Source of the DNA: Chloroflexota bacterium
Lineage (GTDB): Bacteria; Chloroflexota; Anaerolineae; Anaerolineales; Villigracilaceae
Assembly: GCA_013388855.1 (NCBI GenBank)
Contig: JACAEM010000006.1
Span: 1 to 32,959, forward strand
Direction: 5' to 3'
Length of the DNA: 32,959 nt
The notes under the pieces: model-generated
What the model was told of the DNA's origin: nothing
The model's database searches: none
The model's input: only the letters and a program-made list of their open reading frames with translations
Part shown: piece after piece, positions 6,340 to 9,872 of the stretch
Numbering within the stretch: position 1 is the stretch's first letter
Layout of the letters: every line of letters starts with the position of its first letter
Made by a program: the position numbers and the translations under genes

Positions 6340-7353
6340 CTAGATCCTCGCCGCAATTGGACCTAGATACGACTCCAGCAATTCATCCATCCGCTCCAGC
6401 GACTCACACACGAAGAGCATCGGGTTAAAAGCGTAAACCGTCTTCGGGATGCGCGCGATCGTCTCAATGTCAAACGGTACAATGATTACTTCACCGCCAA
6501 AGATACCATCCTGCTTGATGCCCAGGCTCTGGTACAACGAAAGGACCACATTCCAACCCTGGTCGGCGGAGGACATCTGTCCCTTTTGATGGAGGGCATT
6601 CACGCCGTCGATGATGCGGTGCAGGTTGGTCTTGTTGGCGAGGAAATGCGCGTTCAACTGCGGGAAGATCGGGCGGGTGTAATCAATCACGTTATCACGC
6701 CCAAGACGGTAAAATTCCATGATGGTACGGGTCAATTCCTTGCGCCCGGAGATGATCCCCGCGCCGAAAACCTTGAACCGGTTCTCCTGCACCACCAGAC
6801 CAAACTCCGTGCTGTACCACGCCAGCCGCTTGATAACCTCCTTTTCCTCCGGCGTTGCCTTCATATAAGCGGGCGCGAATTTGTCCTCGATGTCCGCGTA
6901 GAATTTTTGCGTGAGGAATGGCAAATGCCCGAAGATGTCGTGGAACATGTCAGGTTCAGGCGTGAATTCCATCTGATCGCGCGTGCGCAAATAGTCGGTG
7001 ATAAGAAAGACGCGCTGGGCAAATTTTTTATACCAATCGTCCGCAAGCGTATAACGCACCGCTGTTCGCTCGATGCGCCAGCCGGTGCGTGACGTGATAT
7101 GTCCGTTCAAGTGCGCCACTGTCGGGATGTGCAGCGGGTCGAGTTCCAGCAAATCCAGTCCTCGATGATACTCATGGCAGAGATGCTCGAGTAAATATGG
7201 CTGGTGAATACCCGCGTACAGATCCGCCCAGATCGCATGTTGTTCCTTCGAAAAAACGATTTCCTGATTTTCAACTGTATACTCTTTTGCCGGGTCGATA
7301 CGTTCTGCTGCAATGTCCCCTGTGTACACTGTCGGATTTTGATTCTTGTCCAT
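6340..7353 (-). CDS. phhA: Phenylalanine 4-monooxygenase (aromatic amino acid hydroxylase)
   Basis: This 337-residue enzyme hydroxylates L-phenylalanine to tyrosine using O2, non-haem iron and a tetrahydropterin. The iron ligands are visible: His138 and His143 in EPDMFHDIFGHLP, and Glu183 in WYSTEFG. The family core spans about residues 35-260. The remaining C-terminal ~75 residues make it somewhat longer than typical bacterial PhhA (about 260-300). I start at 7353, where AAAGG lies about eight bases upstream; the longer frame to 7428 has no family similarity in its extra 25 residues. It diverges from a FolM/PTR1-like reductase and sits next to folB, folK and folE, so its pterin cofactor is probably made and reduced by its neighbours. 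No pterin-4a-carbinolamine dehydratase is present in the window. Confidence 0.93.
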   Translation of the reverse strand: MDKNQNPTVYTGDIAAERIDPAKEYTVENQEIVFSKEQHAIWADLYAGIHQPYLLEHLCHEYHRGLDLLELDPLHIPTVAHLNGHITSRTGWRIERTAVRYTLADDWYKKFAQRVFLITDYLRTRDQMEFTPEPDMFHDIFGHLPFLTQKFYADIEDKFAPAYMKATPEEKEVIKRLAWYSTEFGLVVQENRFKVFGAGIISGRKELTRTIMEFYRLGRDNVIDYTRPIFPQLNAHFLANKTNLHRIIDGVNALHQKGQMSSADQGWNVVLSLYQSLGIKQDGIFGGEVIIVPFDIETIARIPKTVYAFNPMLFVCESLERMDELLESYLGPIAARI

Positions 7354-7412
7354 TTTTCTACCTTTCAAGGGAATAGGATTAAAGATCGAGAACTCAAAAC
7401 GCCAGCGAAAAA

Positions 7413-7441
7413 ATATTATCACCGGCAAAGAAGCGGGTCAA
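7413..7441 (-). promoter_or_regulatory. phhA promoter
   Basis: On the minus strand, TTGACC (7441-7436), a 17-bp spacer and TAATAT (7418-7413) with an upstream TG form an extended -10 promoter. The leader to the ATG at 7353 is about 53 bases. Confidence 0.5.
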
Positions 7442-7478
7442 GAGGCAGGAGGAGGATCGATACCGCTCGCATTTGTAT

Positions 7479-7484
7479 TACAAT
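7479..7484 (+). promoter_or_regulatory. -10 element placed for a leaderless reductase transcript
   Basis: TACAAT ends eight bases before the ATG at 7493, so the transcript would begin at or near the start codon. The short space has no Shine-Dalgarno site. No clear -35 box is seen. Confidence 0.35.
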
Positions 7485-7492
7485 CCCACCTG

Positions 7493-8221
7493 ATGAGCGA
7501 TCAAGCCTTGCATGGAAAGACTATTCTGATCACCGGCGCCGCCCGCCGTCTTGGTCGCGCTTTCGCTCTGGCCTGTGCCCGCGCCGGAGCCGAAATCGTC
7601 ATCCATCACAGTCATTCGGACTCAGATGCCTCAATACTACGTGATGAAATCACAAGACTCGATCGCCGCGCCTGGATTGTTCAAGCAGACTTGAGCGATT
7701 CATCCCAAGCCGGAGGTCTGATTCCGTTGGTGAACAAATCCACCCCTCTGCATGGGCTTGTCAACTGCGCCGCCATCTTCGAACCACTGACCCTCGACAC
7801 CACCTCCCCCGACGCATGGCAGAGACATCTCGCCATCAACCTGACCGCTCCATTCCTGCTCAGCCAAGCCTTTGCAAGACAGGCAGGCGAAGGCGCGCGT
7901 ATCATTAACATCCTCGATTGGCGCGCCCTGCGCCCCGGTGCGGACCATTTTCCCTACACGGTGAGCAAGTCTGCCCTCGCCGCAATGACCAAATCACTGG
8001 CGATCGCACTGGCCCCAAGAATCACCGTCAACGGGTTGGCGCTGGGAGCGATCCTGCCTCCTGCCGATGGGGATATCAACCCTGACATTATCAAGATCGT
8101 TCCATTGAAGCGCTGGGCGCAGGCTGGTGAAGCCGAACAGGTGTTGATTTTCCTGTTGACCTGCCCGGCGTATATCACCGGTGAAATCATCCACGTGGAT
8201 GGAGGCAGACATTTGGTATAG
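7493..8221 (+). CDS. FolM/PTR1-like short-chain reductase (dihydropteridine or dihydromonapterin reductase)
   Basis: This 242-residue SDR has the pteridine-reductase form of the nucleotide motif, TGAARRLG (14-21), in place of the usual TGxxxGIG. Arg at this position favours NADPH. The active site reads Tyr155-x3-Lys159 (YTVSK). Asp142 (ILDWRALRPG) stands where most SDRs have the catalytic Ser, as in PTR1 and FolM. These features predict reduction of dihydropterins to tetrahydropterins. The C-terminal ITGEIIHVDGGRHL is standard for SDRs. It diverges from phhA and precedes folB-folK, so a role in keeping the hydroxylase cofactor reduced, or in folate reduction, is likely. I start at 7493; the frame extends to 7346, but that part is not SDR-like and covers the phhA promoter. 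Confidence 0.8.
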   Translation: MSDQALHGKTILITGAARRLGRAFALACARAGAEIVIHHSHSDSDASILRDEITRLDRRAWIVQADLSDSSQAGGLIPLVNKSTPLHGLVNCAAIFEPLTLDTTSPDAWQRHLAINLTAPFLLSQAFARQAGEGARIINILDWRALRPGADHFPYTVSKSALAAMTKSLAIALAPRITVNGLALGAILPPADGDINPDIIKIVPLKRWAQAGEAEQVLIFLLTCPAYITGEIIHVDGGRHLV

Positions 8222-8400
8222 GGAGGGATACCACCTCGCTCATCCTGAAGTTTGTCCCTGAAATCGTTCAATCATAACTTTCGAGATGATGCAAAAGTTT
8301 AGCCCCAAATTCAGGTTTTGATAATGCGTATGCTCAAGTCACAATTTACTAACCACACCTCAAACTTCCTACACGCAAGAATTTGAAAGGGACCCGAAGC

Positions 8401-8757
8401 ATGGACAAAGTCATCATTAAGAATTTACTGGCACGTGGAATTATTGGTATCAATGATTGGGAGCGAAAACGCGCCCAAAACATTCTCATCAATATCACCC
8501 TCTTTACCGATACGCGCCAAGCTGCCAAAACGGACAACATCGCCGATTGTGTCAACTACAGTACGACGAGCAAGAAGGTGCTGGCGCACGCCGAATCCGC
8601 CAACCGTAAGACTGTGGAAGCGCTGGCAAACGATCTTGCAAAATTGTGTCTGGAAGAAAATGGCGTGCAGAAAGTGATTGTCCGCGTAGAAAAGCCGGGC
8701 GCGGTGCGCTTTTCGGAATCGGTGGGCGTGGAGATCGAACGTTCTCTCAATGACTGA
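8401..8757 (+). CDS. folB: Dihydroneopterin aldolase
   Basis: FolB (118 residues) cleaves 7,8-dihydroneopterin to 6-hydroxymethyl-dihydropterin and glycolaldehyde. The family pattern GxxDWER is present (GINDWERKRAQ, 16-26), with substrate-binding Glu22, Tyr53 in the VNYS segment, and Lys98 in VEKPGAVRFSESVGVEIER. The length is typical. The ATG at 8401 has AAAGGG about ten bases upstream. The 179-bp gap from the reductase holds a possible -35 TTGATA near 8318 but no clear -10 box, and nothing else recognisable. It overlaps folK by 8 bp, so the two consecutive folate steps are coupled. FolB enzymes often also epimerise dihydroneopterin to dihydromonapterin. Confidence 0.9.
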   Translation: MDKVIIKNLLARGIIGINDWERKRAQNILINITLFTDTRQAAKTDNIADCVNYSTTSKKVLAHAESANRKTVEALANDLAKLCLEENGVQKVIVRVEKPGAVRFSESVGVEIERSLND

Positions 8758-9244
8758 GATGCATCTTGCCTATCTAAATCTCGGTTCAAACATCCAACCC
8801 AAGAGGAATCTCGTCGAAGCGATCCGATTGCTCCACAAGTACGGCGAAGTACAAAAGGTATCCAGTGCGTGGGAATCGAAATCGGTCGGCGCGAAGGGAC
8901 CAAACTATCTGAACGCCTGTGTGCTGTTCCGATGTCCGTACATGCCCGGGGAATTGAAGGAGAGAATCATCCGTCCCATTGAAACGCAGTTGGGGCGCAA
9001 ACGGAGCGAAAACAAATTCGCCCCGCGCACGATTGACATTGACATCGTGCTCTTCGACGAAAAACCGTACAACGACAAATTCTGGAATTACGCCTTTGTC
9101 ATCGTGCCGCTGGCGGAGATTTACCCCGACTTCCAAAATCCGCTCACACAGGAAAGTATCACTGAAACGGCAACACGCCTCCGCCGAAAAGTCTGGGTGG
9201 AAGCGCACCGGGATGTGCTGTCTCGGTTTGACGGGGGCAATTAA
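8750..9244 (+). CDS. folK: 6-hydroxymethyl-dihydropterin pyrophosphokinase
   Basis: FolK/HPPK (164 residues) transfers pyrophosphate from ATP to 6-hydroxymethyl-dihydropterin, the step after FolB. The N-terminal LNLGSNIQPKRNL is typical. The signature region reads GRKRSENKFAPRTIDIDIVLF, with the two Asp of TIDID as Mg ligands. PLAEIYPDF is also a family pattern. The start is 8750 or the ATG at 8759; the 8750 start overlaps folB by 8 bp. It converges with folE, whose stop is only 4 bp away. The next pathway enzyme, FolP, is not in the window. Confidence 0.92.
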   Translation: MTEMHLAYLNLGSNIQPKRNLVEAIRLLHKYGEVQKVSSAWESKSVGAKGPNYLNACVLFRCPYMPGELKERIIRPIETQLGRKRSENKFAPRTIDIDIVLFDEKPYNDKFWNYAFVIVPLAEIYPDFQNPLTQESITETATRLRRKVWVEAHRDVLSRFDGGN

Positions 9245-9248
9245 CAGT

Positions 9249-9872
9249 TTAGATCTGAAGCGGTTTCGCTCCACGCGAGATGTTGTCCAGAAACTCCTGC
9301 CGCGTCGCCAGGTTCGCGCGGAACGCTCCATGCATGGCAGAGGTCGTCATGCGCGCGTCGTGTTTTTTCACGCCGCGCATCATCGAACACAAGTGCATCG
9401 CCTCCACCACAACGGCCACACCCTGCGGTTTGAGCAGGTCGCGCAAAAAGTCTGCGATTTGGCGCGTCATCCGTTCCTGCACCTGCAGGCGGCGCGCGTA
9501 CATATCCACGACGCGTGGAATCTTGGACAGCCCCAGCACCTTGCCGTCGGGAATATAGGCAACGTGTGCGCGACCGACGAACGGCAACATGTGATGTTCG
9601 CATAAACTGTAAAATTCGATGTCGCGAACAATGACCATTTCGTCGTATTTCACTTCAAACAGTGCGCTGTTGACGACCTTCTGCGGGTCGGCGGTGTAAC
9701 CACTCAGCAACTCGGTATACATGCGCGCCACACGGTCGGGCGTGTTTCTCAATCCCTCGCGCTCCGGATCCTCTCCGATGGCTTTCAGGAGATCAAGCAC
9801 AAGTTTCTTCGCGGCTGGGACGTTCACATTTGTGGGGGCAAATTCGATATCGTCAATATCATCCAATTCCAT
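9249..9872 (-). CDS. folE: GTP cyclohydrolase I
   Basis: FolE (207 residues) converts GTP to 7,8-dihydroneopterin triphosphate, the entry step to folate and tetrahydropterin. Zinc ligands Cys91, His94 (CEHHMLPF) and Cys162 (HLCSMMRG) are all present, with [21 protein letters not shown] between them. I place the start at 9872 because AAGGAG stands seven bases upstream and the protein then has the usual length; the longer frame to 9926 runs through a hairpin. It is the last gene of a long minus-strand run after comF and hpf, separated from hpf by a perfect hairpin, so it may be partly insulated. With folB, folK, the reductase and phhA it makes a compact pterin neighbourhood. Confidence 0.95.

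Follow-up and report, generated by a model that had tools for sequence, protein, structure and literature searches.

Gene content of the locus

The stretch of DNA described here (denoted the window) comprises 32,959 nucleotides of a Chloroflexota bacterium from the Anaerolineales family Villigracilaceae (assembly GCA_013388855.1, contig JACAEM010000006.1) and harbors a block of five genes that unites an aromatic amino acid hydroxylase with enzymes of pterin metabolism. The window is contig C37 of its genome (G000; 4.03 Mb, 99% complete). The hydroxylase is encoded by phhA on the reverse strand (6340..7353; Pfam Biopterin_H, 115.7 bits against a cut-off of 22.7, over residues 31-211). Three genes follow on the forward strand, namely redA (7493..8221), coding for a FolM/PTR1-type short-chain reductase (Pfam adh_short_C2, 120.7; TGX3RXG and Asp142-Tyr155-Lys159), folB (8401..8757), a member of the dihydroneopterin aldolase family (Pfam FolB, 107.5), and folK2 (8750..9244), a divergent second HPPK-like gene without the PHxxxxxR stretch (Pfam HPPK, 84.7, cut-off 25.7). 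The block ends with folE on the reverse strand (9249..9872), encoding GTP cyclohydrolase I (Pfam GTP_cyclohydroI, 264.5). All five frames are open, every gene exceeds its Pfam cut-off and the total span is 3.5 kb, which confirms the genes, their place and their order as given in the original prediction, along with the TGAARRLG stretch and Asp142 of the reductase.

FolE passes the TIGR00063 model clearly (254.5, cut-off 181.6), and FolB passes TIGR00525 narrowly (74.4, cut-off 72.15). The claim that FolX is missing turned out to be a matter of naming, since the single FolB reaches 86.1 with the FolX model (cut-off 152) and 82.0 with the E. coli-type FolB model (cut-off 184), below both cut-offs. 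FolB and FolE each occur once in the genome, both inside the window, and are therefore presumed to contribute to folate synthesis as well. Nine of the 61 genomes described below (G002, G004, G010-G013, G015, G017, G059) encode an additional, divergent member of the FolE family (168-177 bits), which is absent from G000.

Aromatic hydroxylases bind iron via two His and one Glu, and the corresponding residues of PhhA, H138, H143, and E183, are invariant in an alignment of 24 sequences. By sequence, the closest solved relatives are bacterial phenylalanine hydroxylases, with matches stopping by residue 213. The enzyme of Chromobacterium violaceum (PDB 1ltu) shares the catalytic core with this triad; the window's PhhA differs from it in a 74-residue insertion (residues 212-285; 6499..6720, reverse strand) and in a score below the NCBIfam PhhA equivalog cut-off (169.5 vs 247). 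The insertion is mostly helical in the AlphaFold2 model (mean pLDDT 81.4) and is absent from the shorter PhhA of two genomes from other families (G044 and G057). In Foldseek searches, the model matches structures of tyrosine, phenylalanine, and tryptophan hydroxylases with a TM score of ~0.6 by query length. A role of phhA as substitute for a lost TyrA in G000 was rejected, as two TyrA-type hits lie over the cut-off. G044 and G057 yielded no TyrA-type hit, so that their shorter PhhA, encoded far from redA, may make their tyrosine. With regard to a possible transfer of redA and phhA on mobile elements, PhhA relatives were seen in 44 plasmid records, none spanning 80% of PhhA. A literature search for phenylalanine hydroxylase in Anaerolineae returned nothing.

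Identity of RedA

Pfam assigns RedA to the short-chain dehydrogenases/reductases (SDR) only. Of the NCBIfam models, an SDR family without a name scores highest (194.6 bits), followed by pteridine reductase (178.3, cut-off 288); both scores lie below the respective cut-offs, as does that for dihydromonapterin reductase (99.8, cut-off 249). T14, G15, R19, G21, D142, Y155, and K159 are invariant among the window protein and 25 aligned relatives; in PTR1, the Asp ahead of the YX3K motif is a catalytic residue. The solved structures closest in sequence are those of Brucella FolM (5tgd and 5bt9). The AlphaFold2 model displays an SDR fold (mean pLDDT 86.5), and Foldseek places the same two structures among the best matches (31% identity over 242 columns); because many other SDRs match equally well, this table adds no evidence on the substrate. 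TGX3RXG in place of TGX3GXG is described as the FolM/PTR1-type motif (PMC1971073). Motif and fold support RedA as an enzyme of this family type, which is what is claimed here, rather than orthology to a named enzyme. The same motif in redA-like loci from named organisms (the best 80 of the scan matches) is not independent evidence, because the search patterns contained it.

In a reductase tree of 117 rows, built by a quick method, RedA clusters with genes of Anaerolinea and Leptolinea whose neighborhoods contain fol genes and lack phhA. The placement of E. coli FolM was not used because its branch is very long. The alphaproteobacterial relatives branch outside the redA group; PruA itself was not included. 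The named RedA relatives with 60-65% identity belong to metagenome-assembled genomes filed as Anaerolineales, Anaerolinea, Anaerolineae, Chloroflexi, or Chloroflexota.

Several known systems resemble the block in part. In E. coli and Pseudomonas aeruginosa, a FolX-FolM pathway yields tetrahydromonapterin (Pribat et al., 2010, as cited in PMC5041015 and PMC13259868). This pathway likewise combines a FolM-type SDR bearing TGX3RXG with an enzyme of the FolB/FolX family, and its product is used by phenylalanine hydroxylase; the window differs in having no clear FolX, one FolB-family gene, clustered folK and folE, and a RedA under the FolM cut-off. Clustering of folM-like genes with pterin-branch folate genes was already reported in 2007 (de Crecy-Lagard et al., PMC1971073), where SDRs with TGX3RXG lie beside such genes and were likewise predicted to reduce 7,8-dihydropterins. 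Unlike those clusters, the present one is joined by phhA on the opposite strand, and its folK is a second copy that lacks PHxxxxxR. FolM/PruA of Brucella and Agrobacterium (PDB 5tgd, 5bt9), whose structures are the best solved sequence matches, are described in PMC8725004 and PMC13259868; there PruA acts in a signaling pathway, unlike the role proposed for RedA. PTR1 of trypanosomatids shares TGX3RXG (PMC1971073) and the SDR fold with RedA, and its chains and models are longer (267-289 residues vs 242). A literature search covering titles and abstract openings found no description of the present gene set.

Distribution of redA and phhA

The genome was compared with 60 relatives (61 genomes in all), 37 of the 61 forming its own family (f1). 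Completeness ranges from 80 to 100%, which makes single absences weak. Calls for redA, for folK2, and for redB, a second reductase gene discussed below, were made by visual inspection of bit scores, identities, and gene positions; incomplete redA (G003, G008, G036) and weak or partial redB (G029, G036) were scored as present. Fisher values for co-occurrence within the family ignore relatedness.

Within the family, redA is present in 26 genomes and phhA in 22; 22 carry both, four redA only, none phhA only, and 11 neither. Counted by genus (20 in the family), eight have both, one redA only, none phhA only, and 11 neither. Eighteen sampled genomes, counting G000, have the two genes as divergent neighbors, as do three of the named loci, a recurrence showing that the arrangement is not due to chance. 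In the remaining cases, they lie side by side with an incomplete redA (G003, G008), at two contig ends (G016), or on different contigs (G036). That phhA never occurs without redA in the family (22/22) makes a supply of tetrahydropterin to PhhA plausible there.

The converse does not hold. In the four redA-only family genomes (G002, G010, G015, G026), the redA-folB-folK2-folE block is intact. Among the 24 genomes of other families, eight possess redA, in none of them (0/8) beside phhA; phhA is absent from six of these, and the shorter form in G044 and G057 is encoded at a distance of 0.8 Mb or on a separate contig. Four of the eight (G043, G044, G048, G057) retain the complete four-gene block. 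G042 retains redA-folB-folK2 with folE on another contig, and in G040 the order is folE, redA, folB, with folK2 ~3.5 kb further. Conservation of the neighborhood in relatives thus holds in part: the link to phhA is not conserved in the eight redA-bearing genomes outside the family, and the fol genes are largely kept, with redA beside folB in 6/8. Of the best 80 named loci, 49 have folB at a distance of up to 1.5 kb from the redA-like gene, 23 have folK (up to 2.5 kb), 16 folE (up to 3 kb), and three phhA (up to 2 kb); none has a carbinolamine dehydratase (PCD) within 8 kb. Genes resembling redA adjoin folB also in other phyla. Of the 11 family genomes without redA, 10 have folB adjoining folE with neither redA nor folK2 in between; in G033 the two are on different contigs.

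The gene maps display a recurrent line consisting of a redoxin gene (Pfam AhpC-TSA), an lgt-like gene (Pfam LGT), redA, folB, and folK2, facing folE, followed by hpf, comF, and tad genes. In G002, G010, and G015, and likewise in G043 and G048 from other families, the lgt-like gene is directly followed by redA. Where phhA is present, it occupies the opposite strand and is flanked by the lgt-like gene and redA (G005, G014). In G000, the lgt-like and redoxin genes reside on contig C15, away from the window. Ratios of non-synonymous to synonymous substitution (dN/dS, pairwise counts) for redA are 0.08-0.15 among G002, G010, and G015, three phhA-less genomes close to one another, and 0.14-0.17 in three pairs with phhA. 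Being under purifying selection where phhA is missing, RedA therefore appears useful without PhhA.

These observations bear on an explanation close to the original prediction, in which the block exists as a dedicated PhhA module, RedA makes the tetrahydropterin cofactor of the hydroxylase, and both genes are under joint control. The strict co-occurrence of phhA with redA in the family, the divergent pair measured in 18 of the 22 cases, and a PCD that tracks redA (see below) agree with it. It is nevertheless judged unlikely, in view of redA without phhA in 4/26 family genomes, the redA-bearing genomes of other families without adjacent phhA, the separate contigs of G036, the purifying selection on redA without phhA, the rarity of phhA in the named loci, the single copies of folB and folE, and a variable gap between the two genes. 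The description of the neighborhood as centered around phenylalanine hydroxylase could not be upheld, given that redA-folB-folK-folE stands without phhA in its own family and in others; the module is probably not dedicated to PhhA.

The intergenic region of phhA and redA

The gap between the divergent genes measures 139 bp in the window and holds a separate promoter-like site for each of them. For phhA, this is TTGACC-17-TAATAT on the reverse strand (7412..7441), a consensus match only, with similar sites in relatives; for redA, it is a site on the forward strand (7457..7484), likewise a consensus match only, with TACAAT as second hexamer. Between 7250 and 7600, three promoter-like sites were counted against a mean of 0.5 in shuffled sequence. 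The TACAAT hexamer (7479-7493 region of the window) ends 8 nt ahead of the redA start codon and is placed alike in relatives, so the redA message is possibly leaderless. Across 21 aligned gaps, the redA-proximal hexamer reads TACAAT or TAAAAT in 20/21 and TAGAAT in 1/21. Gap length among the measured genomes varies from 76 to 351 bp, and a shared operator was not seen in the gap alignment, which was inspected by eye without a statistical test. The separate sites, the variable gap, and the lack of a visibly conserved operator qualify the idea that the divergent genes share one promoter region. The region fits two promoters, and joint control is not required.

Carbinolamine dehydratase

The original prediction noted the absence of a carbinolamine dehydratase and proposed a search for a PhhB homolog elsewhere in the genome. 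The absence is correct for the window and not for the genome, which encodes one PCD on contig C15; the neighborhood is in this respect not self-contained. A loss of PCD through the end of the window's contig was considered and rejected, the gene lying inside C15 (272,809 bases). There it is accompanied by the lgt-like and redoxin genes and by putative transketolase and transaldolase-isomerase genes (the last two recognized by eye). In relatives, this C15 block adjoins phhA, which implies that a rearrangement or an assembly error separates the two in G000. In six members of the genus (G003, G005, G011, G014, G016, G017), PCD is 7.9-13.2 kb from phhA, and in G035 ~0.1 kb. Within the family, PCD was found in 23/26 genomes with redA vs 1/11 without, including all four redA-only genomes, and in 19/22 genomes with phhA vs 5/15 without.

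The co-occurrence of PCD with phhA also concerns the cofactor of the hydroxylase. Phenylalanine hydroxylases of non-flowering plants use folate, and PhhA might do the same instead of using a small tetrahydropterin, its place beside folate genes then reflecting folate supply. Apart from this co-location, the 74-residue insertion could alter cofactor use. PCD is a recycler of pterin carbinolamine, and its presence alongside phhA disfavors this explanation, which is regarded as very improbable; a literature search on phenylalanine hydroxylase with 10-formyltetrahydrofolate or in Chloroflexus found nothing on folate use.

A divergent second FolK

The FolK encoded in the window exceeds the TIGR01498 cut-off (77.5 vs 54.1). 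It had to be rejected as the sole or housekeeping copy, because a canonical folK, termed folK1, is located on contig C40 (G000:C40:7724-8104); folK2 and folK1 were distinguished by score and place. The PHxxxxxR stretch, which binds ATP phosphates, is present in E. coli FolK, and its PH is kept in 18/18 FolK1 rows; a literature search found nothing that settles this function. In the window's FolK2, an alignment gap is found at PH, as in 24/28 FolK2 rows of the sampled genomes and 14/23 rows of the named loci. The exceptions G037, G040, G045, and G051 keep PH or PD, and in G037, G040, and G051 this is the only folK. Loss of the PH stretch is accompanied by a canonical FolK1 in 23/24 genomes; the exception, G007, in which FolK2 alone was found, may reflect an assembly gap. 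The canonical type is the only folK in 10/11 redA-less family genomes, and none was found in G029.

Occurrence of folK2 is coupled to that of redA, with 26/26 redA-bearing vs 0/11 redA-less genomes in the family and 34/34 vs 7/27 across all 61; among the 24 genomes of other families, the folK2-type gene is present in all eight with redA and in seven others. The dN/dS values of folK2 are 0.12-0.16 in G002, G010, and G015 and 0.10-0.33 in three pairs with phhA. This tight association suggests a further possibility, namely that RedA and FolK2 form a specialized branch making a different reduced pterin, a cofactor or signal that PhhA merely borrows. In addition to the co-occurrence, it would account for a FolK2 that has lost PH in most rows yet remains under purifying selection in the phhA-less clade, and pterin signaling via a FolM relative is reported from Agrobacterium (PMC13259868). 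The genomes in which a FolK2 with retained PH or PD is the only folK indicate, however, that this type can be an ordinary HPPK; together with the folK2-type gene in seven genomes without redA and the dN/dS of 0.33 in one phhA-bearing pair, this leaves a specialized branch with a low probability.

Reduction of folate

None of the 37 family genomes, G000 included, carries a FolA-type dihydrofolate reductase (DHFR) over the cut-off; other kinds, such as the flavin type fused to FolP, were not searched for. The check for a DHFR elsewhere in the genome, also suggested in the original prediction, thus gave no FolA-type enzyme and revealed a second FolM-like reductase, redB. In a class sample of 317 genomes, used for the FolA and redB profile scans, FolA exceeds the cut-off in 33, 32 of them from one family (f46). 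G000 possesses ThyX, and ThyA was not found. The ThyX gene, a single open frame of 478 codons (G000:C44:225392-226687), contains two Thy1 stretches, and two Thy1 matches occur in 47 of the 49 ThyX-bearing genomes among the 61 searched.

The redB gene lies on contig C1; its product is 43% identical to RedA and also has TGX3RXG and the Asp. In the tree, the seven redB rows branch together as a lineage of their own (100). A search with a single sequence, called by eye, found redB in 35/37 family genomes; the other two (G022, G035) have redA, so that each of the 37 contains redA or redB. With the redB profile, 29/29 family genomes included in the class sample reach 317-452 bits, three of these 29 having contributed to the profile, followed by G048 of another family (300) and a next value of 246. 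In G000, redB stands directly after a proline dehydrogenase gene (L084:5198-6961, on C1), and a gene of similar length is found beside redB in other family genomes; the neighbors of redB in G000 are uninformative on folate.

A lineage with ThyX and without FolA raises the possibility that RedA is mainly the missing DHFR and that the adjacent phhA is accidental. G000 fits this picture, redA is embedded among folB, folK, and folE, FolM-type enzymes can reduce dihydrofolate (as reported in PMC1971073 and PMC13259868), and both family genomes without visible redB have redA. Conversely, neither redA nor FolA is present in 11/37 family genomes, all of which have redB, and 10 of these 11 have folE, folB, and a folK; moreover, redA is kept in FolA-bearing genomes (G042, G043, G044, G057), where it would be redundant. 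RedA as the main DHFR is accordingly seen as rather unlikely. Given the near-universal presence of redB in the family, with redA in the remaining genomes, redB is a stronger candidate than redA for a general dihydrofolate reductase, and RedA would at most assist; as no FolA was found in the genome, folate is probably reduced by redB, with or without RedA.

A proposed older pterin cluster joined by phhA

The reading preferred here, with moderate confidence, is that redA-folB-folK2 facing folE represents an older pterin cluster of Anaerolineales type, that phhA joined it later, and that RedA acts as a 7,8-dihydropterin reductase. The argument for an older fol cluster is carried by the phhA-less cases in the own family. 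According to this reading, FolE would generate dihydroneopterin triphosphate, and the single FolB would provide hydroxymethyl-dihydropterin for folate and, by epimerization, some dihydromonapterin. RedA would convert a 7,8-dihydropterin into its tetrahydro derivative. A phhA gene pointing away from redA would have come to lie beside the block in the lineage leading to this genus and nearby genera. PhhA of this lineage may use the cofactor made by RedA, which the PCD encoded elsewhere would recycle, and RedA would have an additional role independent of PhhA.

Several points weigh against this proposal. Scores below both NCBIfam cut-offs mean that RedA is not a confident ortholog of pteridine or dihydromonapterin reductase, its substrate is a prediction from motif and fold, and related FolM-type enzymes are described as varying in their preferred substrate, dihydropterins or dihydrofolate (PMC13259868). 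In two genomes, G047 and G060, redA does not share a contig with folB and folK2. The late arrival of phhA is a reading of gene maps, and since the redA-only family genomes number four, three of them close together, loss of phhA within the family could be recent. Moreover, PCD is absent from three redA-bearing family genomes of 80-90% completeness and is unlinked to redA outside the family (5/8 with redA vs 10/16 without).

A more speculative extension of the older-cluster reading would be that, in Anaerolineales, an HPPK fold without PHxxxxxR has been reused beside a FolM-type reductase to make or handle a non-folate reduced pterin, with PhhA and PCD as its users in one family and another partner elsewhere, and with redB as the missing DHFR of these FolA-less, ThyX-using bacteria; taken as a whole, this combination is considered doubtful.

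The locus illustrates how gene neighborhood can mislead: phhA seems to be the center of the cluster in a single genome and appears as a newcomer once relatives are compared. Beyond this case, the enzyme responsible for reducing dihydrofolate in ThyX-using bacteria without a recognizable DHFR has been posed as an open question (PMC1971073). The gene set described here may be used to test which enzyme fulfills this function in such bacteria, and the class offers good material for that question, because FolA is found in so few of its sampled genomes.

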